From: Cellulomonas sp. JH27-2
GTDB taxonomy: Bacteria; Actinomycetota; Actinomycetes; Actinomycetales; Cellulomonadaceae
Direction: 5' to 3'
Length of the DNA stretch: 64,000 bases
Assembly (NCBI RefSeq): GCF_014837175.1
Contig: NZ_JACYFR010000002.1
Location: forward strand, 62,001 to 126,000
Each line of letters starts with the position of its first letter. Positions within the stretch are counted from its first letter, which is position 1. Below, piece after piece: positions 4,460-23,588 of this stretch. The notes below the pieces were generated by a model, which worked only from the letters and a program-made list of their open reading frames with translations, did no database searches and had not been told where the DNA came from. Made by a program: the position numbers and the translations under genes.

Positions 4460-4493
4460 TCGTGTCCACGTGGTGGGACGCCGAGTCCAATCG

Positions 4494-4522: not shown

Positions 4523-4530
4523 CCGGGCCC

Positions 4531-6150: not shown

Positions 6151-6172
6151 CCCGCGGCTGTGCCCCGACCGA

Positions 6173-6202
6173 GGGCCCGCGCGACACCCGTCGCGCGGGC
6201 CC
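6173..6202 (+). terminator. Terminator after the first binding protein
   Basis: Perfect 12-bp stem GGGCCCGCGCGA / TCGCGCGGGCCC with a 6-base loop, 22 bases after the stop codon. No T tract, as is common for such terminators in actinobacteria. Confidence 0.7.
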
Positions 6203-6281
6203 ACTCGCATGCCCGGCGCGGGCCGCGATGCCCGACGACGCACGTCCGTGGTCGGTCTTCGCCGCACATTCGTGCCGGCCC

Positions 6282-6352
6282 GTGGTTGCACGGATGGTTG
6301 CCTCGCTCGCGCCCTCCACGGGCACGCCCGACGCAACCATCCCTGCAACCAC
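6282..6352. repeat. Long inverted repeat with four GGTTGC half-sites
   Basis: Arms 6282-6301 and 6333-6352 match over 20 bases with one mismatch, around a 31-base centre. Each arm contains two GGTTGC copies 12 bases apart. It lies between two terminators in the convergent gap 6151-6533, where no gene is seen, so it is not needed to end either gene. It may be a regulator site, a small mobile relic or a structured RNA. Confidence 0.6.
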
Positions 6353-6470
6353 CTGACCACGCCGGTGACGTGCGCGGTGGCGTGCGGCACGGAAGGCGGG
6401 ACTGGTCGCGTGTGGTGGCTTTTCGTGTGGCGGCGCTCGCGTGGTCAGGGTCCGCGGCCGACGACGACGA

Positions 6471-6504
6471 AGGGGCGGGTCCGCGTGGATGCGGACCCGC
6501 CCCT
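6471..6504 (-). terminator. Terminator of the minus-strand dpp-like operon
   Basis: Perfect 14-bp stem AGGGGCGGGTCCGC / GCGGACCCGCCCCT with a 6-base loop, 30 bases beyond the stop of the binding-protein gene at 6534. Confidence 0.75.
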
Positions 6505-6533
6505 CGTCGGCGAGCGGTGACGGACGACCCGGG

Positions 6534-8171: not shown

Positions 8172-8253
8172 GAAGGGTCTCCAGGGTGAAGGTGAGGTGC
8201 GCGTCAGCGCGGAGCGGGGCGAGGTGACGGACAGCAGCCGGGACAACAGGCGG

Positions 8254-9915: not shown

Positions 9916-10913
9916 CGGTTCCTCCCGGGGTCGCCGTCGAGTGCGCGCGAGATCCGGCCGGCGGCCAGCACGGTCGCGACGATGGTCAGGCCCGGCAGCG
10001 TCGTCAGCCACCACGACGTGCGCAGGTAGTCGCGGCCGCCGGCCACGAGCGCTCCCCACTCGGGGGCGGGCGGCGGTTCGCCGTACCCCAGGAAGGACAG
10101 GGACGAGACGGCCAGGACTGCGGCGCCGAGCTCGAGCGCGGCGAGCACGACCACCGGCCCGATCGCGTTGGGGAGCACGTGGCGCCCGAGCGTCGTCCAC
10201 CACCGGCTGCCGCTGGCGTGCGACGCCTCGACGAACACCGAGGTGCGCACGCGCAGCACTTCCGACCGCATGATGCGGGACACGGACGCGACGTTCGCGA
10301 GGCCGACGGCGATCGCGACGTTGATCGTGCCGAAGCCGAGCACCGTGATGAGGGCGAGCGACAGGAGCAGCGCGGGGATCGAGAGCAGCACGTCGACCAC
10401 GCGCATCGCCACGTCGTCGACGACGCCTCCCACGAACCCGGCGACGAGCCCGACGAGCGCCCCGACGACGAGCCCGACGAGGACGGCGGTCAGGGCGGCC
10501 GCCAACGTCAGGTGCGTGCCGTGGACCACCCGCGAGTACAGGTCCCGGCCCAGCTGGTCGGTGCCGAACCAGTGCGCCGACGACGGTGCCTGGAGCTTGT
10601 CGGCGGGGACGCCGTCCAGCGGGTCGCCGGGGGCCAGGAGCGACGGCACGAACGCCGCGAGCAGGATGACCGCGGACCACACCAGCGCCAGGACGAGCCC
10701 GGGCTTGCGGACCAGGTCCTCGAACCGGGTCCGCCACGGGCTGCGGCGGGCCAGCGAGTCCTCGCGCTCGAGCACCGCGTCGGCGAACCGCTCGGCCGAC
10801 GTGGCCGCGAACTTGTCGGCCCGCGTGTTCGGGTCCAGGGCCGTGGGGACGAACGCCTCGGTGGGCGGCTGGGGCCCGCGCTCGCCGGCGGTCAGGGCGT
10901 CGAGGCTGCTCAT
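9912..10913 (-). CDS. ABC transporter permease, DppC type
   Basis: 333 residues. A long N-terminal cytosolic stretch (to about 70) is followed by membrane segments. It has the inner-membrane-component signature [21 protein letters not shown] (about residues 225-245), matching the EAA loop that docks on the ATPase. [18 protein letters not shown] is typical of OppC/DppC. The start overlaps the stop of the DppB-type gene (10910-10913) and the end overlaps the ATPase start, so three genes are translationally chained. Confidence 0.93.
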
Positions 10914-11938
10914 CGGGTACCTCCGGCGGTGACGGGGACGCGGTCCGCTGCGGGCTCGGGGGCGGCGTCGGCCGGCCGAGGTGGCGGTGGTGAGGTGACC
11001 CGCCGGCGGGAGCCGGTCACGATGCGCGGGTCGAGCAGCGGGTAGACGATGTCGATCAGCAGGTTGACCAGCACGTACACGGTGGCCGCGACGAGCACGA
11101 CGCCCTGCACCACCGGGATGTCCTGCGCCGAGACTGAGGTGGCCGTCAGGCGGCCCAGGCCCGCGCGGCTGAAGACCGTCTCTGTGACGACGGCCCCGGA
11201 CAGCAGCCCGCCGATCACCAGGCCGGTCACCGTCAGCGCGGGGAGCGCGGCGTTGCGCAGCGCGTGCCGCAGGTGGACGCGGGTGCGGCTCGCGCCCTTG
11301 GCGAGCGCGGTGTCGACGTACGGCTCGCGCAGCGTGTGCAGGAGGCTGCGCGAGAGCATCTGCGCGATCAGTGCCGACGTCGGCAGGGCGAGCGTCACGG
11401 CGGGCAGGACGGCGGAGGCGAACCCCTGGTTGCCCAGCGCCGGGAACAGCGGGATCTGGAACGAGAACCACTGCACGAGCGTCAGCCCGAACCAGAACGA
11501 CGGGACGGCGACGCCGAGGGGCGGGAGCGAGAGCAGGAACCCGGACAGCCGCCGGCTGCGGGTCGCGGTCGCGACGACCGCCAGGCCGCCGCCGACGACG
11601 ATCGCGAGCACGAGAGCCAGCCCTGCGATCTGCGCCGTCGGCGGCAGCGCGTCGGCGATGAGGGTGGTCACGGGCTGGCCGTTGACGACCGAGGTGCCCA
11701 GGTCGCCGCGCAGCGCGTGCCCGAGCTGCGTCACGTACTGGACGGGCAGCGGCTGGTCGAGCCCGTACTGGGCGCGCAGCGCATCGAGCTGTTCCGGGGT
11801 GACGTCGCTCGACTCGCCGCCGTACATGATGGAGACGGGGTCGCCCGGCAGCGCGTACAGCACCAGGAACGTCACCGTGTAGGCGGCCCACAGGACTCCG
11901 GCGGCCAGCAGCAACCGGCGCACCAGGTAGCGGCTCAC
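10910..11938 (-). CDS. ABC transporter permease, DppB type
   Basis: 342 residues, normal for OppB/DppB. It starts (GTG) [21 protein letters not shown], then [13 protein letters not shown], a long periplasmic loop, and the loop [20 protein letters not shown] of the EAA type. GTG 11938 is chosen because residues upstream do not resemble the family and because GTG overlaps the stop of a 10-codon upstream frame (11935-11967) that carries the good ribosome site. First structural gene of the riboswitch-controlled importer operon. Confidence 0.9.
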
Positions 11939-11967
11939 GGGTTCACCGCCTGCGGTCGTTCGTTCAT
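11935..11967 (-). CDS. Ten-residue upstream ORF in the importer leader
   Basis: Reads [10 protein letters not shown] then TGA; the stop overlaps the GTG of the permease (GTGA). The best Shine-Dalgarno of the leader (GAGGAG, plus-strand 11974-11979) sits before this ATG, and none sits before the permease GTG. It probably works as a translational coupler between the riboswitch and the permease rather than as a functional peptide. No cysteine codons. Confidence 0.5.
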   Translation of the reverse strand: MNERPQAVNP

Positions 11968-12010
11968 GGGGATCTCCTCGTTCGGGACGCGCGTGATGGC
12001 CGTCGGGCTG

Positions 12011-12116
12011 CGTGCTTGCACGACGGACGCCGTGCCTGGTCGTCACCTGGAGCACCCCGCCACGTGCGGAGGGTTGCTGCCCGACCAGCCAGGGCTTGAC
12101 GTCGGGACTCGAGACC
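12011..12116 (-). ncRNA. SAM-IV-type riboswitch, copy 1 (importer operon)
   Basis: Read on the minus strand: P1 strand GGTC, then CGAG; a P2 hairpin; the invariant CAGCAACCC; GGGGTGCTCC; P1 closing GACGACC at 12038. A 3' hairpin GCACG...CGTGC and an AAGC element follow, matching the P5 hairpin and pseudoknot strand of SAM-IV. The predicted transcription start from the promoter at 12123-12151 falls exactly on the first G of P1. Expected ligand: S-adenosylmethionine; expected output: repression when bound. Family assignment is from memory of the consensus. Confidence 0.85.
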
Positions 12117-12122
12117 GCGGCG

Positions 12123-12151
12123 AACCTAGGAAGCCGGGCGGGCCGGATCAA
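12123..12151 (-). promoter_or_regulatory. Promoter of the importer operon
   Basis: Minus strand: TTGATC (12151-12146), 17-base spacer, TAGGTT (12128-12123); start expected at about 12116, the first base of the SAM aptamer. Confidence 0.75.
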
Positions 12152-12205
12152 TGCCCGGCCGCGAACGTCTCACAATTCGGACTCAATCGGTCGGAAATAA
12201 GACGC

Positions 12206-12255
12206 GACCCGCAGGCCGCTCGCGCCGGGAACACCGGCCGAGCGGCCCACGGGTC
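12206..12255 (-). terminator. Terminator of the aminotransferase-monooxygenase operon
   Basis: Long hairpin read on the minus strand: GACCCG...CGGGTC outer, GGCCGCTCG...CGAGCGGCC middle and GCCGG...CCGGC inner pairing, followed by GCGTCTTATTT. It starts 15 bases after the monooxygenase stop and lies just upstream of the importer promoter. Confidence 0.8.
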
Positions 12256-12269
12256 ACGTGGGTGGGGGA

Positions 12270-13586
12270 TCAGGCGTCGACGAGGGCCCCGCGGTGGGGG
12301 ACCGGCGCGCGCAGGCCCAGGTGCTCGCGCAGCGACGTGCTCGTGTACGCGTCGCGGTAGGCGCCGCGCTCCTGCAGCGCCGGGACCAGGTGGTCGACGA
12401 CGTCGTCCAGCCCGGTCGGCACCAGCCACGGCGTGATGTTGAAGCCGTGGCTCGCGCCGCCCCGCACCCAGCGGACCAGCTCGTCGGCCACGGAGTCCAC
12501 GCTGCCGACGAAGCCGCGCTGCCGGTCCTGGGCAAGCACGAGCTGCCGGATCGACAGGTTCTCCGCCTCGGCCCGCTCGCGCCAGGCGCGGGCGAGGGCG
12601 CGCGGGTCCGCGCCGTGCCGGGCCGAGCCCCGCGTCTCACCGACCAGCTCGATGCGGGGGTCGTGGGCCGGCAACGGGCCGTCGGGGTCGTACGACGACA
12701 GGTCCTCGCCCCACACCTGACCGAGCAGCGAGAGCGCGGTGGCCGGCGTGACCTGCTGCTCCTTGACCCAGTGCGCCTTCTCGCGGGCCTCGGCACCGGT
12801 CGCGGCGAGGATGAACTGCGTGCCCGGCAGGATCTTGAGGTCGTCCTCGGGGCGGCCGGCTCGCACGGTGCGGGCGCGGACGTCGTCGGCGAACGCGAGC
12901 GCGTCGTCGTAGTCCGTGCCGTGCGCCGAGAAGATGACCTCCGCGTGGCGGGCGGCGAAGTCGCGTCCGTCGGGCGAGTCGCCGGCCTGGAAGAGCACCG
13001 GGTGGTCGCTCAGCGCGACGGTCGGGGAGACCCTCAGGTCGACCGTGCTGCCCGTGTAGGACACGCTGCGGCCGAACCCGTCCCAGATGGCCTGCGCGGC
13101 CTCGACGAACTCGCCCGCGCGCTCGTACCGCTGCGAGTGGTCCAGCCACCCGCCCCGGCGGAAGTTCTCGCCGGTCCAGGCGTTGTCGGTCGTGACGATG
13201 TTCCACGCGGCCCGGCCGCCGGACAGCGCGTGCAGGCTCGCGAGGCGGCGGGCCAGGTCGGCCGGGTCGTTGTAGGTGACGTTCTGCGTCGCTGCCAGCC
13301 CGATGTGGGTGGTCACGGCCGCCAGCGCCGCGAGCTGCGTGATCGCGTCGGGGCGGCCGACGACGTCGAGGTCGTGCAGGAGCCCGTTCTGCTCGCGCAG
13401 CCGCAGGCCCTCGCCCAGGAAGAACGCGTCGAACAGCCCGCGCTCGGCGGTCTGCGCCACCTGGCGGAACGTCTCGAAGTCGATCTGCGAGCCGCTGGCG
13501 GGGTCGGTCCAGATCGTCGAGTGGTTGACGCCTTGGAAGAAGACGCCCAGGTGGACGTGGGCGTTCGGGTAACGGTCGTCGGACAC
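12270..13586 (-). CDS. FMN-dependent monooxygenase, NtaA/SnaA/DszA (CmoJ-like) family
   Basis: 438 residues, normal for this class of two-component flavin monooxygenases. Hallmarks: HVHLGVFFQGVNHSTIW at the N-terminus, AQTAERGLFDAFFLGEG, NVTYNDPADLARRLASL, GRAAWNIVTTDNAWTGENF and HPVLFQAGDSPDGRDFAA. The family uses reduced FMN and oxygen to cleave C-S or C-N bonds (dimethyl sulfide, dibenzothiophene sulfone, N-acetyl-S-alkylcysteine). GTG 13586 has GAAGGAG upstream. It lies 11 bases after the second monooxygenase and in the same SAM-controlled operon as the aminotransferase. The flavoprotein at 16381 could supply the reduced flavin. Substrate is inferred. Confidence 0.88.
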   Translation of the reverse strand: MSDDRYPNAHVHLGVFFQGVNHSTIWTDPASGSQIDFETFRQVAQTAERGLFDAFFLGEGLRLREQNGLLHDLDVVGRPDAITQLAALAAVTTHIGLAATQNVTYNDPADLARRLASLHALSGGRAAWNIVTTDNAWTGENFRRGGWLDHSQRYERAGEFVEAAQAIWDGFGRSVSYTGSTVDLRVSPTVALSDHPVLFQAGDSPDGRDFAARHAEVIFSAHGTDYDDALAFADDVRARTVRAGRPEDDLKILPGTQFILAATGAEAREKAHWVKEQQVTPATALSLLGQVWGEDLSSYDPDGPLPAHDPRIELVGETRGSARHGADPRALARAWRERAEAENLSIRQLVLAQDRQRGFVGSVDSVADELVRWVRGGASHGFNITPWLVPTGLDDVVDHLVPALQERGAYRDAYTSTSLREHLGLRAPVPHRGALVDA

Positions 13587-13597
13587 GGTCGTCTCCT

Positions 13598-14728
13598 TCA
13601 GGCGGTCGCGGCGAAGCGCGAGGTGGGTCGGGGCAGGCCGAGCGTGTCGCGCAGGGTCGCGCCGGGGCGCGGGGTCGGCAACGCGCGGGCCACGCGCAGC
13701 GCGGGAAGCACGTCGCGGACCAGCACGGGCACGTCGTCGTCGATCACCGAGGGCAGGATCCGGACGCCGTCGACGACGCCGCGCAGCGAGGTGAGCAGCG
13801 CGACGAGCCCGGCGGCCGAGCCCGTGAAGACGACGGCGTCGGGGGTGTGCGCGGCGCTCCGGTCCAGTGCTTCCAGACGTTGTGCGCCCGTGGCGGTGTC
13901 GGTGTCCAGGGTCACGGCGACGTCGACGAGCACGAGCGGGGCACCCGTTCCCTGCGCCTGCCCGAGGGAGGAGACGAGCGCGATGTCGAGCAGCTCGCCC
14001 GGCACGGCGCCGGCACGGCCGACGACGACGGACTGGCCCTGCGGGCCCCGCGGCACGATGAGCGGTCCCTTGACCGTGAAGGGAGCCCGTCGGCCGTCCG
14101 GTGCGGAGCGCAGCGCGGGGGAGGCGGCTGGGCCGTCGCCGCCGCTGGCGAAGTCGACGTAGTGCAACCGGTCGCGGTCGATGTACCGGCCCGTGGCGGT
14201 GTCCCGGATCACGGCGTCGTCGTCCCACGAGTCCCACAGGTCGCGCACCACCGTGACGACGTCGGCGGTCTCGTCGGCCAGGTCCTGGCCGTCTGCGACC
14301 GGTCGGTCCAGCGCGGCGCGTGCCCCGGGGACCGCACCTGCGCCGACGAGCCAGCCGGACCGGCCGGTGCTCGCGTGGTCGAGAGCCGCGAGCTGGCTCG
14401 CGAGGTGGAACGGCTCGGTGACGGCGGGGTGGACGAGCGGGACCAGACCGATCCGGGACGTGAGAGGCGCAGCGAACGCCGCCCGCGTCACGGCGTCGAC
14501 CCGGTGCGGGTCGCGGCCTGCGACCGGGACGAGCGAGTCGTCGAACGTCACGAACGTGACCCCGGCGTTCTCGGCGGCGGCGACCACCGTGCGCAGGCGG
14601 TGGGCGTCGGGCGTGACGCCCGGTCGGGCGGCCGGGGTCGCGAAGGTCGTGTGCGGTTCGACGAGGTGGGCGGCCGGGTGCTGGCCGGCGCCGTCCACCT
14701 CGAGGGCGATGTGCAGGACGGAGGTCAT
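13598..14728 (-). CDS. Luciferase-like (LLM class) flavin-dependent oxidoreductase
   Basis: 376 residues. Luciferase-like barrel features: TVVAAAENAGVTFVTFDDS, TSRIGLVPLVHPAVTEPFHLA and ASTGRSGWLVGAGAVPGARA. It is more divergent than its neighbours and shows an unusual middle part (about 200-260) with no long signature I recognise. It sits between the aminotransferase (20 bases upstream) and the NtaA-type monooxygenase (11 bases downstream), so the three are one transcript from the riboswitch at 16011-16089. Probably a second oxygenase or partner in the same organosulfur route. Confidence 0.75.
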   Translation of the reverse strand: MTSVLHIALEVDGAGQHPAAHLVEPHTTFATPAARPGVTPDAHRLRTVVAAAENAGVTFVTFDDSLVPVAGRDPHRVDAVTRAAFAAPLTSRIGLVPLVHPAVTEPFHLASQLAALDHASTGRSGWLVGAGAVPGARAALDRPVADGQDLADETADVVTVVRDLWDSWDDDAVIRDTATGRYIDRDRLHYVDFASGGDGPAASPALRSAPDGRRAPFTVKGPLIVPRGPQGQSVVVGRAGAVPGELLDIALVSSLGQAQGTGAPLVLVDVAVTLDTDTATGAQRLEALDRSAAHTPDAVVFTGSAAGLVALLTSLRGVVDGVRILPSVIDDDVPVLVRDVLPALRVARALPTPRPGATLRDTLGLPRPTSRFAATA

Positions 14729-14748
14729 CGAGTTCCTTCGATCGGGGT

Positions 14749-15957
14749 TCAGCGGACGGAGTCGTAGGCGTCGCCGAGCCGGTCGACGAACGCGAGCAGC
14801 GTCTCGACCGGGTGGTTGCCGTAGGCCAGGCGCAGGTGGTCGGCGAACTCGCGGCGACCGCTCGAGGCGAAGAACTCGCCCCGCTGGTAGGAGGCGCCGC
14901 GCTCGGCGGCGGCCTCGTACAGGCGCGTCGGATCGATCGTGGGGTCCGTCAGGCGCGGCCACAGGAAGAAGCCGCCGTCGGGTCGGCGCGTCTCGATCAG
15001 GTCGCCGAACCGCTCCGTCAACGCGTCGACCACGGCGTCGGCGCGCTCGCGGTACAGCGCGCGGGCGCCGACGAGCGTGCGGTCGAACCACGTCGCGTCA
15101 TGCGTCAGCAGGTCGATCACGATGCGCTGCTCGAGCGTGGACGTGTGCGAGTCCTGCCTGTTGCGCAGGCGCACGAACGCCTGGGCCAGCCGCGGGGGAG
15201 CCACGACCCAGCCGAGGCGCAGGCCGGGGCCCAGGGTCTTCGAGAACGTGTTGACGTGCACCACGTGCTCGGAGGAGTTGAAGGCGCCGAAGTCCTCGTC
15301 GGCGCCGCGGAACCGCAGCTCGCGGTACGGGTTGTCCGCGATGACGACGACGTTGTACCGCTCGGCGAGCTCGACCAGGCGCACCCGGGCCTCGGCCGGC
15401 AGCGTGCCCTGGCTCGGGTTGTGGAAGTCGGGCACGGTGTAGACGGCCGACGGGCGCGCGCCCCCCACCAGGTGGGCCTCGAGCTCGTCCACGTCCAGGC
15501 CGTCGGGTCCCACGCTGACCGGGAGCGTGGCGGCCTGGGACAGCTCGAGCGCGCGCAGGAACAGCGGGAACACCGGGTTGTCGACCGCGACGAGCCCGCC
15601 GCGCTCGACCAGGGTCAGCACGGCGAGGGACAGGCCGTGGAACCCGCCGTTCGTGACGATGACCCGGTCGGCGTCGACACCTTCGCGTGCCGCGATCCAC
15701 GCGCGCAGCTCGTCGAGCCCCGCAGACTGCGAGTACTGGAACGAGCCGGGGCCGGACACGGTCCCGGTCAGCACCCGCTCGGTGGCGGCGAGGACCTCGT
15801 GCACCGGCAGCGCCGAGTCGTCGGGGATGCCTCCGAGCAGCTCGATGTCGCCGGGCCTGCGGCGACGCAGGCTCGCGTCCCCGAAGCCGTGCGGTTCGGG
15901 CAGGCCGAGCGAGAGGGCGGTCAGCGCGGGCAGTGCGAGTTCGGCGGTGGTTGTCAT
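14749..15957 (-). CDS. PLP-dependent aminotransferase, class I/II fold
   Basis: 402 residues. Fold-type I aminotransferase: VIVTNGGFHGLSLAVLTLVE (cofactor loop), VPDFHNPSQGTLP, VVIADNPYRELRF (Asp and Tyr contacting PLP), Schiff-base lysine in NTFSKTLGPGLRLGW, and RRPDGGFFLWPRL near the C-terminus. This is the 2-aminoadipate/MocR-like aminotransferase group without a DNA-binding domain. First gene of the minus-strand operon; ATG 15957 has GGGAGAAG upstream. It could transaminate a sulfur amino acid or its keto acid (methionine or S-alkylcysteine); a C-S lyase role is also possible. Confidence 0.87.
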   Translation of the reverse strand: MTTTAELALPALTALSLGLPEPHGFGDASLRRRRPGDIELLGGIPDDSALPVHEVLAATERVLTGTVSGPGSFQYSQSAGLDELRAWIAAREGVDADRVIVTNGGFHGLSLAVLTLVERGGLVAVDNPVFPLFLRALELSQAATLPVSVGPDGLDVDELEAHLVGGARPSAVYTVPDFHNPSQGTLPAEARVRLVELAERYNVVVIADNPYRELRFRGADEDFGAFNSSEHVVHVNTFSKTLGPGLRLGWVVAPPRLAQAFVRLRNRQDSHTSTLEQRIVIDLLTHDATWFDRTLVGARALYRERADAVVDALTERFGDLIETRRPDGGFFLWPRLTDPTIDPTRLYEAAAERGASYQRGEFFASSGRREFADHLRLAYGNHPVETLLAFVDRLGDAYDSVR

Positions 15958-15988
15958 GGCACGTCTTCTCCCTGGTGGGACATCGCTT

Positions 15989-16089
15989 GCGACCGCGGTC
16001 GCGGACGCCAGGTCGTGCTCGGGAGCACCCCGCCGGTGTCGTGGGGGTTGCTGTTCCGCCTGCCGAGCCAGACGGCGGAACTCGGGACC
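15989..16089 (-). ncRNA. SAM-IV-type riboswitch, copy 2 (aminotransferase operon)
   Basis: Minus strand: GGTC (16089-16086), CCGAG, a P2 hairpin, CAGCAACCCCC, GGGGTGCTCCCGAG, closing GACC (16014-16011). A hairpin GCGAC/GTCGC (16002-15989) and AAGC follow. The aptamer core is very close to copy 3 on the other strand (same GCCGTCTGGC..CGGCAGGCGG and CCCCCACGACACCG runs), so the two divergent copies probably arose by inverted duplication. It begins at the predicted transcription start of the promoter at 16097-16125. Confidence 0.87.
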
Positions 16090-16096
16090 GCCGCGC

Positions 16097-16125
16097 AAGT
16101 TAGGTCGCGGACAGGGACGCGTCAA
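16097..16125 (-). promoter_or_regulatory. Promoter of the aminotransferase operon
   Basis: Minus strand: TTGACG (16125-16120), 17-base spacer, TAACTT (16102-16097). Start expected at about 16090, one base before P1 of the SAM aptamer. Confidence 0.8.
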
Positions 16126-16220
16126 GGGTTCGTCCCGGTCGTCTCACGAACGCGTTCTTCGGGCGATCGTGCAGGTAAGAGCGTTGCGTCCCGCGATGCA
16201 AGACGGTCCGGAGCGACCGT

Positions 16221-16249
16221 TGACATGGCCGTGTGGGACGCGGATTCTC
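16221..16249 (+). promoter_or_regulatory. Promoter of the nitroreductase-to-monooxygenase operon
   Basis: Consensus TTGACA (16221-16226), 17-base spacer, GATTCT (16244-16249). Start expected at about 16256, two bases before the SAM aptamer. Confidence 0.8.
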
Positions 16250-16257
16250 CCCGCCAG

Positions 16258-16360
16258 GTCACGAGCCCCGCCGTCTGGCCCGGCAGGCGGGGCAGCAACC
16301 CCCACGACACCGCGGGGTGCTCCCGGGCAAGACCGGGCCCGTCGCACGACGGGCAAGGAG
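16258..16360 (+). ncRNA. SAM-IV-type riboswitch, copy 3 (plus-strand operon)
   Basis: GGTCACGAG (16258-16266), a P2 hairpin CCCCGCC...GGCGGGG, CAGCAACCCCC, GGGGTGCTCCCGGGC, closing GACC (16332-16335), then hairpin CCCGTC/GACGGG (16339-16354) and GCAAGGAG. Nothing resembling a terminator with a T tract lies between the aptamer and ATG 16381, so control is probably at translation. GGGAGCACC just before the ATG (16372-16380) is an exact 9-base complement of GGTGCTCCC inside the aptamer (16317-16325), a possible alternative pairing. Confidence 0.88.
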
Positions 16361-16380
16361 TGTCACGAAAGGGAGCACCC

Positions 16381-17103
16381 ATGTCTGTCTCGAGCACAGC
16401 CGAGCTGCGCACGGCGTCCGTCGACGAGCTCGTCCGCAGCCGTTACGGCGACGAGCCCACGGGAGACCTGCCGGTGACCGAGGTGATCGTCCAGCAGCTC
16501 GGCCACCGGTCGGTGCGTCGCTACCTGCCCGACGAGGTCACCGACGCCGAGCTCACCGCGATCGTGGCCGCGGCGCAGTCGGCCGCCACGAGCTCCAACC
16601 TGCAGCTCTGGAGCGTCGTGGCGGTCCGCGACCCGGGCTCGCGCACCACGCTGTCGGCGCTGGCGGGCGGCCAGCGGCACATCGTCGACGCCGCGCTCGC
16701 GGCCCAGAACGCGACGCTCGCCGCCGAGTCGCTCGGGCTCGGCACGGTTGACATCGGCGCGCTGCGCAACCGCCCCGAGCAGGTCGCCGAGCTGCTCGGA
16801 CTGCCGCCCCACGTCTTCGCGGCGTTCGGGCTGGTCGTCGGGCACCCCGACCCGGACGAGGCGCCGCGCGTCAAGCCGCGCCTCGCCCAGGCCGCGGTCC
16901 TGCACCACGAGACGTACGACGCCGACGTCCACCTGCCGCAGGTCGCCGCCTACGAGGGCCGCATCGCCGCCTTCTACGCCGACGAGGGCCTCGAGCACTC
17001 CTGGACGTCGCGCGTCCTGGCGCGACTGTCCGGACCCGACGCGCTGAGCGGACGCGACCGGCTCGGCGAGGCGCTCCGCGCGCAGGGCTTCGAGCTGCGC
17101 TGA
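16381..17103 (+). CDS. Nitroreductase-family FMN/NADPH oxidoreductase (NfsA-like)
   Basis: 240 residues, typical for NfsA/FRP-type flavin reductases. Markers: HRSVRRYLPDEVTDAEL near residue 40 (FMN contact), AAAQSAATSSNLQLWSVVAV, GLGTVDIGALRNRPEQVAEL and the family-typical VKPRLAQAAVLHHETYD stretch. Such enzymes reduce FMN or nitro/quinone compounds with NADPH. First gene after SAM riboswitch copy 3, ATG 16381 with GGGAG ten bases upstream. The most economical role is supplying reduced FMN to the three monooxygenases of the island; it is not a typical FRP/CmoI-type partner, so this is inference. Confidence 0.85.
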   Translation: MSVSSTAELRTASVDELVRSRYGDEPTGDLPVTEVIVQQLGHRSVRRYLPDEVTDAELTAIVAAAQSAATSSNLQLWSVVAVRDPGSRTTLSALAGGQRHIVDAALAAQNATLAAESLGLGTVDIGALRNRPEQVAELLGLPPHVFAAFGLVVGHPDPDEAPRVKPRLAQAAVLHHETYDADVHLPQVAAYEGRIAAFYADEGLEHSWTSRVLARLSGPDALSGRDRLGEALRAQGFELR

Positions 17104-17106
17104 ACC

Positions 17107-18594
17107 GTGAGCACAGCCGAACCCGTGCGCCTCGCCGCCACGCCCGTCGAGGCGCCGGCGTCGCGCACGCAGAACCGGGTGCTGGCGGTCTGTCTGGTCG
17201 TTGGCTTCGCGACCCTCGTCGACCAGTCGATCCTGACCGTCGCGATCCCGTCGCTGCGCGCGTCCCTGGGCGCCGGCACGGCGCAGGTGCAGTGGATCGT
17301 CGCGGCCTACTCGCTCGGCTTCGCCGTCGCGCTGGTCCCTGCCGGGCGCCTCGGGGACGCGTTCGGGCGGCGCGGTCTGCTCGTGGCCGGCGTCGCCACG
17401 TTCTCCGCGTTGAGCATCGTGGCGGCGACGGCGACGAGCGCCGACGTGGTCGTCGTCTGCCGCCTGCTGCAGGGCGTGGCCGCAGGCACGGCGAACCCGC
17501 AGGTCATCGGCCTGATCCAGGAGCACTTCACGGGGTGGCGGCGGACTCGCGCGCTGGGTGCGTACGCGACGGTGGCGGCCTTCGCCGGCGTCGTCGCGCC
17601 CCTTCTCGGCGGGGCGGTCGTCGGCCTCGCCGGGGAGGCCGGCGGTGCGTGGCGCTGGGTGGTGGTGCTGAACGTGCCGTTCGGGCTCGCGGTGGCGGTC
17701 CTCGGCGTGGCGTGGTTGCCCGGGCGTGCCGGCCGCGCCGCCGGGCCGGGACGCGTGCGGCTCGACGCCGTCGGAGCCGTGCTGCTCGGTGCCACGACGC
17801 TCGCCCTCCTGGTCCCGGCTGTGAGGCTCAGCGGCGGGGGTTCGGCGGGCTGGGGGAGCGTGGTGGTCGTCGTCGTCCTGGTGGCACTGCTCCTGCTGTG
17901 GGAGCGGCGGTGCGCCCGACGAGGAGGACTCCCGATCCTGGCACCCGACCTGCTCCGGCTGCGCGGCTTCGCCACCGGGACGCTCGTCGCGACCTTCGCG
18001 TTCGGTTCCGCGTTGGGCACGTCGCTCGTCCTCGTGCTGTTCCTCCAGGAAGGCCTGGGGCTCAGTGCGTGGGAGGCGGGGCTCGTCGGTGCTCCCGGGG
18101 CGGTGGTCGGGGCCATCTGCTCCGCGTACGCCTGGCGCGTCTCCTCCCGGTACGGGCGACCGGCCGTGACGCTCGCGCTGGCGGCCGTCGCGACCTCGCT
18201 GCTCGTCGGCGCGGCGCTCGTCGCGTGGGCCCCGCCCGCGGTGCTCGTGGGTGGCCTGATCGTCACGCAGGTCGTCACGGGAGCGGGCGGCGGGCTCGTG
18301 CACGCACCCAACCAGGCGCTCACGCTCGAGGCAGTCCCGCTGCGGTCGGCCGGGCTCGCTGCCGGGTTCCTCCAGGTCGCGCAGCGCATCTCGGCCGTGC
18401 TCGCGCTCGCCGTCCTGGGCGGCCTCGTCCTCGCGTCGGCAACAGTCGGCGACCTCGACTCGTACCGGCGGGCCACGGTCGTCGCGCTCGGCGTCACGTC
18501 GGCGCTCGTCGTCGCGGCGGCGGTCGCCTCGAGCACGGACCGGCGGGCGTCGACCACCCCCGGCGTCGTGGCGCTCGAGTGTGCCGCCACCTGA
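17107..18594 (+). CDS. MFS transporter, DHA2 (14-helix) drug/efflux type
   Basis: 495 residues with about 14 hydrophobic segments. DHA2 markers: VDQSILTVAIPSLRASLG (motif D1-like), WIVAAYSLGFAVALVPAGRLGDAFGRR (motif A), CRLLQGVAAGTANPQ and the proline-glycine motif C in GVVAPLLGGAVVG. GTG 17107 starts three bases after the nitroreductase stop. Second gene of the SAM-controlled operon; it may export a toxic by-product of sulfur scavenging (an aldehyde, sulfinate or thiol) or move the substrate. Direction and substrate unknown. Confidence 0.88.
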   Translation: MSTAEPVRLAATPVEAPASRTQNRVLAVCLVVGFATLVDQSILTVAIPSLRASLGAGTAQVQWIVAAYSLGFAVALVPAGRLGDAFGRRGLLVAGVATFSALSIVAATATSADVVVVCRLLQGVAAGTANPQVIGLIQEHFTGWRRTRALGAYATVAAFAGVVAPLLGGAVVGLAGEAGGAWRWVVVLNVPFGLAVAVLGVAWLPGRAGRAAGPGRVRLDAVGAVLLGATTLALLVPAVRLSGGGSAGWGSVVVVVVLVALLLLWERRCARRGGLPILAPDLLRLRGFATGTLVATFAFGSALGTSLVLVLFLQEGLGLSAWEAGLVGAPGAVVGAICSAYAWRVSSRYGRPAVTLALAAVATSLLVGAALVAWAPPAVLVGGLIVTQVVTGAGGGLVHAPNQALTLEAVPLRSAGLAAGFLQVAQRISAVLALAVLGGLVLASATVGDLDSYRRATVVALGVTSALVVAAAVASSTDRRASTTPGVVALECAAT

Positions 18595-18676
18595 GCACGT
18601 CCGGACCAGACCTGATCCGCCTCATCGACCACACACCGCACCGACCACACACCGCACCGTGAAGGAGAAGGAAGCC

Positions 18677-19102
18677 ATGACCAGCACCGCACCGACCAGC
18701 ACGGCACCCGCCCAGGACCTGACCCTCGAGGAGGCGACGGCGCTCGCGCCGGCGCTCGACGCCGTCCGCGCCGCCGCCCGCGTGGCCGAGGGCGCGGTCC
18801 TCGTCGACGTGCGCAGCGCGGCCGGACGCGCGTCCGTGGGAGAGATCCCCGGCGCGACGGTCGTCGACCGGTGCACCGTGGACGAGACCTTCGACCTGAC
18901 GTCGGCGACCCGGCTGGCTCCCGTCGTCTCGCTCGACACCCCGGTCGTCGTCGTGTGCGGGTCGGTGCGCGGCTCCGGCCCGGTCGCCGCCGCGCTCATC
19001 GCCAGGGGCTACACGAACGTCGTGCACGTCGAGGGCGGTGCGGGCGCCTGGCGGGACGCGGGCCTGCCGTTCGAGCCCGGCGCGCAGGACGCCGCGCAGT
19101 GA
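18677..19102 (+). CDS. Rhodanese-like domain protein
   Basis: 141 residues, one rhodanese domain. VLVDVRSAAGRASVGEIPGA is the CH2A-like start. The active-site loop is CGSVRGSG after VVVV, with Cys at about residue 94 followed by a six-residue loop, the size used for sulfur rather than phosphate. VVHVEGGAGAWRDAGLP is the usual end. It would transfer or handle sulfane sulfur. ATG 18677 follows GAAGGAGAAGG. The stop overlaps the next gene's GTG (GTGA at 19099), so it is coupled to the amidohydrolase. Fits release of sulfur from an organic donor. Confidence 0.88.
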   Translation: MTSTAPTSTAPAQDLTLEEATALAPALDAVRAAARVAEGAVLVDVRSAAGRASVGEIPGATVVDRCTVDETFDLTSATRLAPVVSLDTPVVVVCGSVRGSGPVAAALIARGYTNVVHVEGGAGAWRDAGLPFEPGAQDAAQ

Positions 19103-20460
19103 CGACGACCGACGCGCCGTCGAACCGGGTGAGCACGGCGTTCCTCGACGAGCTCCGCGAGCTCACCGAGCGTCGCCGCGCGGCCTTCGTCCCGCTCTCG
19201 TCGCCGTTCGCTGGTGCGCGTCCCGACGACGTCGCCCGCGTGCGCGCCGCGGCGGCACTCGGCGAGAGGGAGGCGCTCACCCTGGCCCGCGACGTGCACG
19301 GCTACGCGGAGGAGGCATACCGCGAGGTCCGGTCCGTCGCTGCCGTCGCCGACCTGCTGCGCGCGCACGGTGTCCCCGCGTCGGTCGGCACGCACGGTGT
19401 CGCGACGGCGTTGCGTGCCGGCCTGACGGCTGACGGGCCCGACGACGGCAGCAGCACGGACGGGCCGACCATCGCGATCCTCGCCGAGTACGACGCGCTC
19501 CCCGACGTGGGACATGCCTGCGGGCACCACCTGATCGCGGCCGCCGCCACGGGCGCGTTCCTGGCGCTGCGGCGCGCGGTCGCGGACGGGCTCACTCTCG
19601 CGGGCCGCGTGCTGCTCCTCGGCACACCTGCCGAGGAGGGCGCATCCGGCAAGGAGGTCCTGGCGCGAGCCGGGTTCTTCGAGGGTGTCGATGCGGCGAT
19701 CATGGTGCACCCGTTCGGCTACGACGTGGTCGACCACCCGTTCCTGGGGCGCCGCCAGCTGCGCGTCACGTACCAGGGAGTCGCCGCGCACGCGTCGGCG
19801 AGCCCGTTCATGGGGCGCAACGCGCTCGACGCCGCGACGCTGAACTACCAGGCGGTGGCGCTGCTGCGCCAGCACATCCCGCCGAGCGACCGGGTCCACG
19901 GCGTGATACGGGAGGGCGGTCAGCGACCCAGCGTGGTCCCCGAGCGCGCGAGCGTCGAGTACTACGTCCGCTCCGCGAGCCCGGCCACGCTGAAGGATCT
20001 GAGCCGGCGCCTCGAGGACGTCGCGCACGGTGTCGCGCTCGCCACGGGCACGACGGCCCACCTGGACTGGGACGCCGCGCCGTTCACGCTGCCCGTCCGC
20101 ACCAACGGCCCGCTCGCGGCGCGCTGGGCGACCCATCAGGCGGCGCAGGGACGTACCGCGCTCGCGGGTGGCGTGGTGCCGGAGATCCTGGCGGCGTCGA
20201 CCGACTTCGGGAACCTCAGCGTCCGGCTGCCGGGCATCCACCCGATGATCGCGGTCGGTGACCCGGACGTCGCACTGCACACGCGCGAGTTCGCCGAGGT
20301 CGCGGCCGGGCCGCGGGGCGACGCGGCGGTCGTCGACGGGGGCCTCGGGCTCGCCCTCACGGCGCTGGACTGGTTGGCCGACCCGGTCCTTCGTGAGGCC
20401 GTGCAGAGCGACTTCGAGGCCGCCGGCGGTGTGCTCGACGTGGCGGGGTACTTCGCATGA
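19099..20460 (+). CDS. M20-family amidohydrolase/deacylase (SndA-like)
   Basis: 453 residues. Metal-site motifs: ILAEYDALPDVGHACGHHL with Asp132 and the metal ligands in GHACGHH (138-144), then LLLGTPAEEGASGKEVL, and a late VAAHASASPFMGRNALDA dimerisation-domain start. It is a metallo-amidase of the HipO/AbgB/SndA group that removes an acyl group from an amino acid. GTG 19099 overlaps the rhodanese stop; its own stop overlaps the acetyltransferase start. Next to an acetyltransferase and a luciferase-like oxygenase, the likeliest job is deacetylating an N-acetyl-cysteine derivative, as Bacillus SndA does. Specificity is inferred. Confidence 0.87.
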   Translation: MTTTDAPSNRVSTAFLDELRELTERRRAAFVPLSSPFAGARPDDVARVRAAAALGEREALTLARDVHGYAEEAYREVRSVAAVADLLRAHGVPASVGTHGVATALRAGLTADGPDDGSSTDGPTIAILAEYDALPDVGHACGHHLIAAAATGAFLALRRAVADGLTLAGRVLLLGTPAEEGASGKEVLARAGFFEGVDAAIMVHPFGYDVVDHPFLGRRQLRVTYQGVAAHASASPFMGRNALDAATLNYQAVALLRQHIPPSDRVHGVIREGGQRPSVVPERASVEYYVRSASPATLKDLSRRLEDVAHGVALATGTTAHLDWDAAPFTLPVRTNGPLAARWATHQAAQGRTALAGGVVPEILAASTDFGNLSVRLPGIHPMIAVGDPDVALHTREFAEVAAGPRGDAAVVDGGLGLALTALDWLADPVLREAVQSDFEAAGGVLDVAGYFA

Positions 20461-21011
20461 GCGGGGGCCCGGAGGTCGTCGTCCGCCTCGTCGAGCCGCA
20501 CGAGATCGACGACGTCAGCCGCCTGTCCGTCGAGGCGTACGCGCACGACTACACGTTGAGCGAGGGCTACCGCGCGTCGGTCGCCGACGTCGCCGGCCGA
20601 GCCCGCGAGCACGAGGTGTGGGTCGCCCAGGAGGTCGCGACCGGCGAGCTCGTCGGGACGGTCGCGACCCCACGGGTCGGTGGTCGCCTCTCGGAGCTGG
20701 CGCGTGACGACGAGGTCGACTTCCGGCTCCTCGCCGTCGCACCGCACGCCCGGGGCCGAGGCATCGGCGAGCTCCTCACCCGGCACGTGATCGCGCTGGC
20801 ACGCGCACGCGGTGCGCGGCGCGTCGTCATGAACTCCGGCCCGCGGATGGTCGGTGCCCACCGCCTCTACCAGCGGCTCGGCTTCGTCCGCCTGCCGGAA
20901 CGCGAGACCCGGTTCGTCGACGGCGCGACCCTGCTCGCGTTCGGCTACGACCTCGAACCCGCCATCACCACGACCACCGTCCCACCCCTCACCCAAGGAG
21001 CACCCGCATGA
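20457..21011 (+). CDS. GNAT-family N-acetyltransferase (SnaA-like)
   Basis: 184 residues with the acetyl-CoA loop VAPHARGRGIGELLTRHV (about 97-114) and the closing LYQRLGFVRLPERET. ATG 20457 overlaps the stop of the M20 gene (ATGA), and its stop overlaps the next monooxygenase start (ATGA at 21008). Co-occurrence with an M20 deacetylase and flavin monooxygenase matches the Bacillus S-alkyl/2-succinocysteine operon, in which acetylation precedes oxidative C-S cleavage. It could instead detoxify an amine. Confidence 0.85.
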   Translation: MSGGPEVVVRLVEPHEIDDVSRLSVEAYAHDYTLSEGYRASVADVAGRAREHEVWVAQEVATGELVGTVATPRVGGRLSELARDDEVDFRLLAVAPHARGRGIGELLTRHVIALARARGARRVVMNSGPRMVGAHRLYQRLGFVRLPERETRFVDGATLLAFGYDLEPAITTTTVPPLTQGAPA

Positions 21012-22168
21012 GGTTCCAGGTCCTCGACATCGTCCCCCACGCCGCCCACCCCGTGACCGGTGAGCAGCTCGACCCCTCGACCCGGCTGGAGCGCGTCGTC
21101 GAGACCGCGGTGCTGGCCGAGGAGCTGGGCATCGACGCCTTCGCGGTGGGGGAGCGGCACGCGGGCGACTTCCTGTCCTCGTCGCCCACAGTCCTGCTCG
21201 GCGCGCTCGCCCAGGCCACCGACCGCATCCTGCTCAGCACGGGCGTCACCGTCCTCTCGCTGCTGGACCCGGTCCGCGTCGCCGAGGACTACGCGACGAT
21301 CGACCTGCTGTCCCGGGGGCGCCTCGAGATCGTCATCGGCAAGGGCAACGAGGACAAGCACTTCCCGCTGTTCGGCCTCGACATCGACCACCAGTACGAC
21401 TACCTCGAGGAGAACTACGGCCTGCTTCGGCGCCTGCTCTCCGAGGAGCACGTCGACTGGCAGGGAACGTTCCACGCACCGCTGACCGACGCGACCACGC
21501 TGCCGCGGCCGTTCGACGGTCCGTTCCGGATCTGGCACGGCTCGGCGACCAGCCGCTTCGCGGTCGAGCTCGCGGCCAGGAACGGGGACCCCATCGTCTC
21601 GGCGAACGCCCTGCAGCCGCGCGAGGCCTACCAGGTCCTCGTCGACCACTACCGCGAGCAGCTCGAGGTCCACGGCCACGACCCGGCGGTCGGGTACGTG
21701 GGCGCCGGCTCGGGCGGTCTCTTCCTCGCGGACACCACGGACGAGGCGACGCGGGAGTACCGCGCGGTGTACGAGGCGTTCGCGGCGCGCAGCATCGCCA
21801 AGCACGCGGGCGACGCGCGGCCGGGCAAGTCGTCGTCGTTCGCGAGCATCGAGGACGCCGTCGAGCGCGGGCCGGCGCTGGTGGGGTCCTCGGAGCGGGT
21901 GGCCGAGAAGATCGTCGACTACCACCGGTCCTTCGGTCACGACTTCCAGTCGGTCTCGCTCAACCCGGTCCTGCCCTACGAGCAGCAGCACGACGTCCTG
22001 CGCCGGTTCGCCGAGGAGGTCGTGCCGCTGGTGCGCCGCGAGGTGTCCACGACCTTGTGGGGTCCGCGGGACCCGGGCCGCGCCCGGGGGATCGCGGCGG
22101 CACGGCAGGCGGCCGGACTGCCCGACGACGACCTGGTCCCGCAGCGCACAGCGGGAACGGGCGCGTGA
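21008..22168 (+). CDS. Luciferase-like flavin-dependent monooxygenase (CmoO-like)
   Basis: 386 residues, bacterial-luciferase fold. Features: VVETAVLAEELGIDAFAVGERH, LLSTGVTVLSLLDPVRVAEDY, LLSRGRLEIVIGKGNEDKHF, FRIWHGSATSRFAVELAARNGDPI and SERVAEKIVDYHRSFGHDF. This is the longer LLM group related to luciferase alpha chains and YtmO/CmoO. Last gene of the plus-strand SAM-controlled operon, coupled by ATGA to the acetyltransferase. Probably oxidises the sulfur compound with FMNH2 from the flavoprotein at 16381. Confidence 0.87.
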   Translation: MRFQVLDIVPHAAHPVTGEQLDPSTRLERVVETAVLAEELGIDAFAVGERHAGDFLSSSPTVLLGALAQATDRILLSTGVTVLSLLDPVRVAEDYATIDLLSRGRLEIVIGKGNEDKHFPLFGLDIDHQYDYLEENYGLLRRLLSEEHVDWQGTFHAPLTDATTLPRPFDGPFRIWHGSATSRFAVELAARNGDPIVSANALQPREAYQVLVDHYREQLEVHGHDPAVGYVGAGSGGLFLADTTDEATREYRAVYEAFAARSIAKHAGDARPGKSSSFASIEDAVERGPALVGSSERVAEKIVDYHRSFGHDFQSVSLNPVLPYEQQHDVLRRFAEEVVPLVRREVSTTLWGPRDPGRARGIAAARQAAGLPDDDLVPQRTAGTGA

Positions 22169-22253: not shown

Positions 22254-23588
22254 ATGACCACCTCGCTGGACACCGCGCAGGCTGCCGCCGCGGGCTCGGA
22301 CACGGGCCCGCAGGAGGGGCTGGCTGACGTCGCCGGGCAGGTCGAGCAGGTCGCCCGACGAGCCCAGCGCGCCTCGCGTCGTCTGGCGACGGCCAACCGC
22401 AGCACCAAGGACGCGGCCCTGCACGCGATGGCTGACGCGCTGGTCGCGGCCACGGACCGGGTGGTCGCGGCGAACATCGAGGATCTCGACCGGGCGCGCG
22501 CCGGCGGCATGGCCGCGGGGCTCGTCGACCGGTTGGCGCTGACGCCCGAGCGGATCGTCGCGATCTCCGACGCGCTGCGCGAGCTGGCCGGCCTGCCGGA
22601 CCCGGTGGGCGAGGTCGTGCGCGGGTCCACACTGCCGAACGGCCTGCGGCTGCGCCAGGTGCGCGTGCCGATGGGCGTGGTCGGGATGATCTATGAGGCG
22701 CGCCCCAACGTGACCGTCGACGCCGCGGGCCTCGCGCTCAAGAGCGGCAACGCCGTGATCCTGCGCGGCGGCTCGGCGGCGGCGTCCAGCAACTCCGTCA
22801 TCGTCGACGTGCTGGCGCAGGCGCTCGAGTCCCAGCACCTGCCCGGTGAACTCGTGCAGTCCATCGACGCCTGGGGGCGCGAGGGCGCCGTCGCGCTCAT
22901 GCGGGCGCGCGGGCTCGTCGATGTCCTGGTGCCCCGCGGCGGCGCGGACCTGATCCGGACCGTCGTGCGCGAGTCGATCGTCCCCGTCATCGAGACCGGC
23001 GTGGGCAACGTGCACGTCTACGTCGACGAGAGCGCCGACCTGGGCGACGCGCTGCCGATCCTTCTCAATGCGAAGACGCAGCGCGTCGGCGTGTGCAACG
23101 CGGCGGAGACGCTGCTGGTGCACCGCGCGATCGCGGACGAGTTCCTCCCGACGGCCATCGCGATGCTGGCCGACGCCGGCGTGACGATCCACGGCGACGA
23201 GACGACGCTGGCACTCGCGCCGGAGGAGGCGGACGTCGTCCCGGCCACCGACGAGGACTGGGGGACGGAGTACCTGTCGCTCGACCTGGCCGTCCGCGTG
23301 GTCGAGGACCTCGACGAGGCCATCGAGCACATCCGCACCTGGAGCTCGGGCCACACCGAGGCGATCCTGACGCGCGACCTCGCGGCCTCCGAGCGGTTCG
23401 TCGCCGAGGTCGACTCGGCCGCCGTGATGGTCAACGCGTCCACGCGCTTCACCGACGGCGGGCAGCTGGGCCTGGGCGCCGAGATCGGCATCTCGACCCA
23501 GAAGCTCCACGCCCGCGGGCCCATGGGCCTGGCCGAGCTGACGACCACCAAGTGGATCGTGCACGGCGACGGCCACGTCCGCCCCTGA
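22254..23588 (+). CDS. proA: Gamma-glutamyl phosphate reductase
   Basis: 444 residues, including an N-terminal extension of about 25 residues over the E. coli enzyme. Aldehyde-dehydrogenase fold with [33 protein letters not shown] and the catalytic Cys281 in [27 protein letters not shown] and [20 protein letters not shown] close the protein. It reduces glutamyl-5-phosphate to the semialdehyde in proline synthesis. ATG 22254 sits six bases after TACGCT, so the message is probably leaderless. It is separated from proB (3320-4459) by the sulfur island. Confidence 0.97.

Follow-up and report, generated by a model that had tools for sequence, protein, structure and literature searches.

What is the function of the gene island that lies between proB (3320–4459) and proA (22254–23588) in this stretch of Cellulomonas sp. 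JH27-2? We refer to the whole stretch analysed here, 64,000 nucleotides of 73% GC within a 3.73 Mb genome (G000:C2:62001-126000), as the window. The island occupies positions 4531–22168 and consists of three transcription units and a separate gene for a substrate-binding protein (SBP). We lean, somewhat beyond an even balance, towards a variant of the acylate–oxidize–deacylate salvage route, with an S-substituted cysteine as the candidate substrate. S-alkylated cysteines derive from detoxified electrophiles and, in the literature covered, their recovery has been worked out mainly in Bacillus. The acylate–oxidize–deacylate salvage of S-substituted cysteine is already known, while the enzyme set of the island is new; no description of an actinobacterial variant was found in the open-access papers searched. 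If our reading holds, the same logic has been assembled from different enzymes in actinobacteria, and searches for orthologues of CmoJ or SndA would therefore miss the island.

In the Bacillus route, as given in the portion of PMC10863075 drawn on here, CmoO makes a sulfoxide and CmoJ opens the C–S bond, with reduction and deacetylation to follow. Within the passages used, an acetyltransferase, a monooxygenase and an M20 deacetylase are described as common to three B. subtilis clusters (PMC12757645), and the yxe route as leading to N-acetylcysteine (PMC9706529). The corresponding genes of the island, together with a second subunit-like monooxygenase gene, are as follows (LLM, luciferase-like monooxygenase; FMN, flavin mononucleotide).

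12270–13586, minus strand: LLM1, an FMN monooxygenase of the NtaA/DmoA family, LLMb clade (330.5 bits against a cutoff of 279.7; flavin-site residues T, H, Y and Q kept)
13598–14728, minus strand: LLM2, apparent flavin-site-degenerate partner of LLM1, LLMa clade (none of the four flavin-site residues kept)
19099–20460, plus strand: M20 amidohydrolase on the PM20D2/HmrA side, with an HACGHH motif and the metal ligands present (PDB matches, tree, residues)
20457–21011, plus strand: GNAT acyltransferase with an RGRGIG motif (Acetyltransf_1)
21008–22168, plus strand: LLM3, an Atu2307/CE1758-like luciferase-family monooxygenase (PF00296, 239.5 bits; CE1758 and Atu2307 models, 240 and 221 bits, below their cutoffs; 2i7g nearest in the PDB)

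The link to S-alkylcysteine loci

The tie between the island and the S-alkylcysteine guild (the link to S-ALKYLCYSTEINE) is supported at the sequence level by LLM3 and the Opp-type ATP-binding cassette (ABC) transporter, because both travel with CmoJ- or SnaA-like genes in Bacillota. A search of 72,556 plasmid records with LLM3 only, at 1e-60, returned seven records (three Bacillota, four Actinomycetota), and every one of the seven homologues has CmoJ, a SnaA-like gene or an LLM1-type (LLMb) gene nearby. In the Bacillota, CmoJ (61% and 64%) is 5.6 and 7.2 kb away or a SnaA-like GNAT (41%) adjoins; in the four Actinomycetota records LLMb adjoins LLM3 or is 1.2 kb away. The order in Niallia taxi is CmoO (57%), CmoI (52%), CmoJ (61%), OppB, OppC, two ATPases, SBP, LLM3 and SnaA (65%), and Paenibacillus cellulosilyticus carries two CmoJ-type genes (61% and 64%), a SndA-like gene (32%), SBP-Opp genes, a major facilitator superfamily (MFS) gene and LLM3. 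In Paenibacillus sp. IHB B 3084 it is the SnaA-like GNAT (41%) that adjoins LLM3, with no CmoJ match within the 29 kb looked at. Since CmoJ-type genes occur in 568 of the 72,556 records at 1e-90, these meetings of LLM3 and CmoJ are unlikely to have arisen by chance. A further locus, from Paenibacillus sp. BSR1-1 (L024), holds CmoJ, SBP-Opp, LLM3, a CmoJ-like gene, CmoJ, CmoI, Tcy genes, a GNAT and SndA; it was found with YtnJ and is thus not independent. LLM3 and the Opp unit accordingly stand in the loci L024, L133 and L135, whose CmoJ shows 61–64% identity and in part of which homologues of CmoO, CmoI, SnaA or SndA accompany CmoJ, and LLM3 stands beside a SnaA-like GNAT in L132. Neighbourhoods were also counted in 248 genomes (the 68 best M20 rows, the best 15 of 30 LLM3 rows and the 11 best GNAT rows), which are related, so that the counts are not independent. 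Of the best 15 of 30 LLM3 homologues from genomes of the order, 10 have LLM1 within 20 kb, and 13 have at least one of LLM1, M20 and GNAT within that distance.

The same genome contains a second cluster of this kind (G000:C3:104648-114357, L017), headed by an S-adenosylmethionine (SAM) riboswitch of the SAM-IV class at 104648–104761. It comprises LLMa, LLMb (52% identical to LLM1), DUF1684, a GNAT, ABC parts of the amino-acid type and a DAO-type oxidase. Also present is an LLM of the MsnO8 family with 43% identity to CmoO over 132 residues. In its CmoO-family enzyme and its importer type, the C3 cluster resembles the Bacillus route more closely than the window does. Because relatives (G220, L094; G054, L090; G242, L074) mix window-type and C3-type sets in one locus, we read the two clusters as halves of one sulfur-salvage repertoire in which C3 would supply the CmoO-family enzyme. 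On two alphaproteobacterial plasmids, LLMa–LLMb is likewise found with MsnO8, GNAT and ABC genes. As a separate observation, DUF1684 recurs in clusters with the LLM pair (L090 6327-7313, L017 12661-13479, L094 4578-5357).

It is quite improbable, in our view, that the island desulfurizes another class of organosulfur compound (sulfonates, sulfones or thioethers) and that GNAT and M20 serve a side task. Such a role would agree with the NtaA-family relatives, which include DszA and DmoA, with the SsuD-like LLMs and SsuE-like FMN reductases (all below model cutoffs) seen in related loci, and with the pyridoxal phosphate (PLP), MFS and rhodanese parts, which have no place in the Bacillus route. 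It fits poorly, on the other hand, with the company that LLM3 and the Opp unit keep with CmoJ and SnaA in Bacillota, and with the amino-acid ABC genes and GNAT of the related C3 cluster.

The LLM1–LLM2 pair

The nearest PDB chain to LLM1 is 7e36_B, and LLM2 matches 7e36_A over residues 44–373 (78 bits); 3SDO scores higher against LLM2 (118 bits), mostly over the first half. According to the parts of PMC8027225 used here, 7E36 is NtfO1–NtfO2, heterodimeric both in the crystal and in solution; FMN was placed by docking, rather than observed, at T133, H151, Y155 and Q203 of NtfO2. Chain B of 7e36 has these residues at exactly those numbers. In an alignment of 82 sequences, T, Y and Q are conserved in all 34 LLM1-type (LLMb) rows and H in 25 of them, while the 31 LLM2-type (LLMa) rows have Q in none, H in none, Y in one and T in five; the NtfO1 chain is degenerate too. 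The pattern recurs in the plasmid pairs (two Streptomyces, Tsukamurella, Rhizobium, Paracoccus), where LLMb keeps T, Y and Q in 5/5 and LLMa is without H, Y and Q in 5/5. By a strict script, 28 of 33 LLMb rows have LLMa upstream, and in the remaining five (four Brachybacterium-type loci and L105) a shorter or weaker LLMa precedes LLMb. Among the plasmids, Tsukamurella has one gene between LLMa and LLMb, and one Streptomyces has the reversed order. By contrast, the five CmoJ rows of Bacillus, Paenibacillus and Psychrobacillus closest to the reference have no LLMa-type partner. A quick tree with several long branches, from which 14 near-identical rows had been dropped beforehand, separates LLMb (34 rows, SH-aLRT 100) from the CmoJ clade (7 rows including 3SDO, SH-aLRT 99). 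The LLM1 homologue of G222 (L105, same order) is almost identical to the Brachybacterium one.

LLM2 thus appears to be the regular partner of LLM1 that lost its flavin site. The initial annotation had counted it as a third monooxygenase, an independent role that we reject: with all four flavin-site residues gone it is, by its residues, no working monooxygenase. By analogy with NtfO1–NtfO2, in which a small subunit with a degenerate flavin site likewise accompanies an NtaA-like subunit that keeps T133/H151/Y155/Q203, LLM1 would be the catalytic and LLM2 the flavin-less subunit of a putative heterodimer. The two systems differ in setting, polyketide tailoring there and a sulfur cluster here. A single-chain AlphaFold model of LLM2 from nine sequences reached a pLDDT of 39.7 and was set aside.

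The resemblance to a polyketide enzyme, with NtfO1–NtfO2 the nearest solved LLM pair, raises the question of whether GNAT, MFS and monooxygenases instead act on an antibiotic, in detoxification or natural-product tailoring, for which the DHA2-like MFS would also be suited. We consider this very improbable: three SAM-IV switches point to sulfur supply, and LLM pairs of this kind are found again next to ABC importers, both in actinobacteria and in two Alphaproteobacteria. If our salvage reading is correct, this recurrence beside importers in Actinomycetota and Alphaproteobacteria would add a catabolic setting for a flavin-site-degenerate partner subunit, and the island would offer a way to test whether a single amidase works with two types of capping enzyme.

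The M20 amidohydrolase and its amide-forming neighbour

The M20 enzyme matches PM20D2 (198.5 bits) and HmrA (175 bits) in the PDB, against 43 bits for YxeP/ScmP. In a tree of 30 rows, 22 relatives of the window enzyme included besides the PDB chains, it is separated from SndA/ScmP at 100/100; PM20D2, HmrA and one host M20 sit on long branches, so that their exact positions are uncertain. Its identity with SndA is thus ruled out by tree and motif. The residue after CGH is D in the SndA/ScmP rows; PM20D2, HmrA and the remaining relatives in the tree have N there, and in the nine-row clade of the window M20 it is H in seven and Q in two. This replacement suggests an altered substrate. The window enzyme shares with PM20D2 and HmrA the side of the tree and the metal ligands; it differs in the motif (HACGHH against HACGHN) and in its operon with monooxygenases, and its activity is a prediction. 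Every one of the nine clade members has an LLM1 or LLM3 homologue within 20 kb, which is true of 1 of the 59 other M20 relatives; the arrangement of the island is for this reason not a matter of chance. No close relative of the M20 (1e-80) was found among the 72,556 plasmid records.

What stands beside this amidase varies. The gene that follows M20 is a RimK-like ATP-grasp in six of the nine closest loci (L076-L080, L096) and a GNAT in three, namely in the window and two same-genus relatives; in those two relatives the GNAT is double. In all three loci of the genus the GNAT overlaps M20 or starts within 50 bp of it, and an ATP-grasp of the RimK-like kind was not found in these three GNAT-bearing genomes at 1e-30. 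The GNAT is about twice the length of the window enzyme at L074 8617-9669 (two Pfam domains) and at L075 10714-11712 and L090 3994-5178 (two matches each). Three ATP-grasps were scanned with Pfam RimK (cutoff 21), and the two from the M20 clade scored 21.8 and 27.8 bits. One example, L079 10506-11519, is a possible amino-acid ligase. ATP-grasp homologues lie within 20 kb of M20 or LLM1 in 15 of 43 places (9 near M20, 11 near LLM1), and beyond the M20-clade loci six further genomes have one within 20 kb of LLM1. Three more M20 relatives (G137, G041 and G099) have an ATP-grasp within 6 kb and no LLM1 or LLM3 homologue within 20 kb. The alternation of a ligase and an N-acyltransferase beside one amidase is the best sequence evidence for a capping–uncapping cycle, and the cap in the relatives may be aminoacyl.

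An extension of this idea, a rather doubtful one, is that the N-caps are exchangeable. In the relatives, ATP-grasp would join an amino acid to S-substituted cysteine, in the genus GNAT would replace it in the same position of the operon, and one PM20D2-type amidase would remove either cap, the C–S bond being opened by an obligate pair with a flavin-less subunit; this would constitute a dipeptide-capped salvage branch. Several observations sit badly with a cap. The ATP-grasp beside LLM1 in L102 reaches 15.1 bits for RimK, below the cutoff, and in 28 of the 43 places ATP-grasp stands apart from both M20 and LLM1. M20 relatives at 49–61% identity (among the 68 best rows) are mostly outside such clusters.

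An M20 dipeptidase might act first, on imported S-substituted cysteinyl dipeptides (breakdown products of glutathione or mycothiol), in which case GNAT does not make the M20 substrate. We regard this peptide-first order as unlikely. It would account for the proximity of M20 to PM20D2, an Xaa-Arg dipeptidase, and to HmrA, for a transporter of the Opp/peptide kind with two binding proteins, and for the predominance of ATP-grasp over GNAT after M20 in the closest loci. It would not account for the tight coupling of GNAT to M20 in all three loci of the genus, and the H or Q that sets the whole clade (9/9) apart from the N of PM20D2, HmrA and other relatives suggests a changed substrate.

Control, layout and distance from the Bacillus enzymes

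We now turn to how the island is organized and controlled. The remaining features are as follows.

4531–6150, plus strand: SBP1, peptide/nickel-type ABC substrate-binding lipoprotein (TIGR04028, 327 bits, below the cutoff of 468.5; homologues beside LLM3/CmoJ in Bacillota)
6534–8171, minus strand: SBP2, second TIGR04028-like substrate-binding protein (331 bits, below the cutoff)
8254–9915, minus strand: OppDF, fused double ABC ATPase (two ABC_tran stretches)
9912–10913, minus strand: OppC-type permease (Opp2C/NikC families, below their cutoffs)
10910–11938, minus strand: OppB-type permease (BPD_transp_1; Opp2B below cutoff)
12007–12116, minus strand: SAM-IV aptamer upstream of oppB (93.8 bits; gathering score 38)
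14749–15957, minus strand: PLP fold-I aminotransferase, aminoadipate-aminotransferase-like (Aminotran_1_2; best PDB match 2egy, 163 bits)
15978–16089, minus strand: SAM-IV aptamer, 20 nt before the aminotransferase start (62.6 bits)
16257–16365, plus strand: SAM-IV aptamer, 15 nt before the nitroreductase start (61.5 bits)
16381–17103, plus strand: NfsA-like nitroreductase, probably an FMN reductase (PF00881; NfsA-family model, 149 bits, below the cutoff of 223)
17107–18594, plus strand: MFS transporter, DHA2/EmrB-like (MFS_1, 135 bits; EmrB model, 141 bits, below the cutoff of 230)
18677–19102, plus strand: rhodanese-domain protein with Cys in the active loop (rhodanese-type families, below cutoffs)

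The plus-strand unit reads nitroreductase, MFS, rhodanese, M20, GNAT, LLM3; the first minus-strand unit reads PLP aminotransferase, LLM2, LLM1, and the second OppB, OppC, OppDF, SBP2. SBP1 stands alone behind proB. Rhodanese/M20, M20/GNAT and GNAT/LLM3 each overlap by 4 bases; the overlaps and coordinates that the initial annotation gave for the acetyltransferase, M20 and luciferase-like genes are right, and the gene it called NtaA-type in the divergent operon, LLM1, passes the NtaA/DmoA cutoff. It had lacked the NfsA-like nitroreductase and the Opp-type transporter with two SBPs behind the third SAM-IV (4531–11938). Family matches, codon-position GC (for many genes) and counterparts 60–91% identical in same-genus loci are the grounds on which we call the island genes real. 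What the computations show directly are the genes, the matches to the riboswitch, the conservation of the neighbourhood, the missing flavin-site residues and the placement in families.

SAM-IV control, also proposed in the initial annotation, is borne out by three window matches to the covariance model (RF00634), all above the gathering score and ahead of three operons, so that every unit except SBP1 starts with an aptamer. Each match runs along the full model and no difference from the family was seen; ligand binding is predicted. A laxer search of 4300–9900 gave no additional riboswitch. The aptamer-to-start-codon distances of 15, 20 and 68 nt would suit translational control. A search for a Cys-rich leader peptide near the operons gave two short reading frames of no clear meaning, and no Cys run is seen in the leader annotated for the plasmid-borne Streptomyces cluster.

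Taken together, we propose that the island would be switched on through its three aptamers when SAM is low. The Opp-type transporter would import an S-substituted cysteine, either as such or in the form of a small peptide or an acyl derivative, and GNAT would cap its amino group. The nitroreductase would supply FMNH2 to LLM3 and to the LLM1/LLM2 pair, with LLM1 catalysing and LLM2 as a partner without a flavin site; one of these monooxygenases would oxidize the thioether and the other open the C–S bond, in either order. The PM20D2/HmrA-type M20 would then remove the cap and free cysteine, and the rhodanese may handle sulfenic or sulfane sulfur in the place of CmoI.

How far does this depart from Bacillus? 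Reference genes were obtained by scanning named genomes with YtnJ, which gave the B. inaquosorum operon (L021) and loci of Paenibacillus, Psychrobacillus, Brachybacterium and others; we take YtmI to be SnaA, YtmO to be CmoO, YtnI to be CmoI, YtnJ to be CmoJ and YtnL to be SndA. Several results weigh against our reading. First of all, none of the four island enzymes is orthologous to SnaA, SndA, CmoO or CmoJ. GNAT is 21% identical to SnaA in a multiple alignment, with no BLASTP match at E<=10 and nothing beyond chance in tblastn. M20 shares 24.5% (70 bits, BLASTP) with SndA and has HACGHH for HACGHD, although both pass the broad amidohydrolase model TIGR01891 (cutoff 153.75; 228.9 bits for the window enzyme, 428.8 for SndA). 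LLM1 is 32% identical to CmoJ (192 bits, BLASTP) and falls in a separate clade, both being over the TIGR03860 (NtaA/DmoA) cutoff at 330 and 543 bits. LLM3 matches CmoO with 63 bits over 114 residues (BLASTP) and reaches 72 bits for the MsnO8 family TIGR03558 (cutoff 167), compared with 349 for CmoO and 273 for the C3-cluster enzyme. Second, the CmoO-family enzyme and amino-acid importer of this genome lie on another contig. Third, the solved structures closest to M20 carry the names dipeptidase or HmrA rather than N-acetylcysteine deacetylase, and two SndA-like M20s elsewhere in the genome (C3:707036, 35%; C1:932947, 39%) could carry out N-acetylcysteine deacetylation in trans instead. An M20 of the window kind lies within 20 kb of LLM1 homologues in only 7 of the 45 genomes of the order (8 of 56 places), so the deacylation step is not universal. 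Fourth, SAM-IV occurs in loci of two same-genus genomes (L074, L075, L110, L111) and one same-family genome (L094) and was not found in the stretches, 20 kb or shorter, of L076-L080, L090, L095, L096, L100 and L128, so the regulator looks lineage-specific. Finally, the roles of PLP enzyme, MFS and rhodanese are tentative; these roles, the substrate, the order of steps, the cap chemistry and the heterodimer are what we infer.

The initial annotation had equated the set with the snaA-cmoO-cmoJ-sndA combination. As a pathway type this is supported by the Bacillota loci that join LLM3, Opp and CmoJ; as enzyme identity it is not supported by tree, BLAST and models. The enzymes group largely elsewhere than with SnaA, SndA, CmoO and CmoJ, which goes far towards one half of what it had named as refuting its proposal. 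Its further claim of a distinct actinobacterial version gains support; the enzyme set is largely different from that of Bacillus. With the B. subtilis ytm/ytn system (SnaA-CmoO-CmoI-CmoJ-SndA) the island shares a GNAT, LLM oxygenation, an M20, an ABC importer and sulfur control. It differs in a GNAT without detectable similarity to SnaA, an M20 from another branch, and an LLM1 outside the CmoJ clade that is paired with a flavin-site-degenerate partner. The window has no CmoI or CmoO-family enzyme (for CmoI, no tblastn match at E<=1; a six-frame search with six Bacillus proteins gave no better match and no CmoI), its importer is Opp- not Tcy-type, and the island adds SAM-IV control, a PLP enzyme, a rhodanese and an MFS. 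Acetyltransferase, monooxygenase and M20 deacetylase logic is shared with scm (yxe) and yha as well, as far as the passages used of PMC12757645 go, with ScmP on the HACGHD side of the M20 tree, unlike the window enzyme. The GNAT is 27–31% identical to GNATs of Paenibacillus and Psychrobacillus CmoJ loci, a weak link. A common subfamily with these was considered and dropped on account of that low identity and of GNATs at 31–49% across many genomes of the order; the GNATs of L132 and L133 are SnaA-like instead.

As for the setting, composition gives no signal of foreign origin (73.4% GC against 72.9% in the rest of the window). The gap between proB and proA matches is 43–152 bp in 6 of 10 relatives, 3.1 kb in G088, and 14.6 and 22 kb in two same-genus genomes (G060, G242), where the cluster sits; in G144 of the same genus a 5.0 kb gap holds what, judged by eye, are presumably arsenic-type genes. 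The proB–proA junction thus looks like an insertion site for alternative cargo.

Elsewhere, L111 4744-5077 carries SAM-IV and SAM-I (S box) aptamers back to back, about 120 bp apart. Open-access literature on SAM-IV gene contexts gave nothing further on the island. The highest-scoring SAM-IV in the genome (115.9 bits, C1:323747-323861, minus strand; L018 9320-10862) lies ahead of a SufS-like class V PLP gene, which runs divergently from the gene for a metZ-like O-succinylhomoserine sulfhydrylase; in S. clavuligerus, according to the passages used of PMC8269248, a gene of the class V aminotransferase fold also has a predicted SAM-IV in front of it. A weak sixth SAM-IV of the genome (48.4 bits, C1:1042118-1042230; L019 7119-7231) lies ahead of a 174-aa reading frame.

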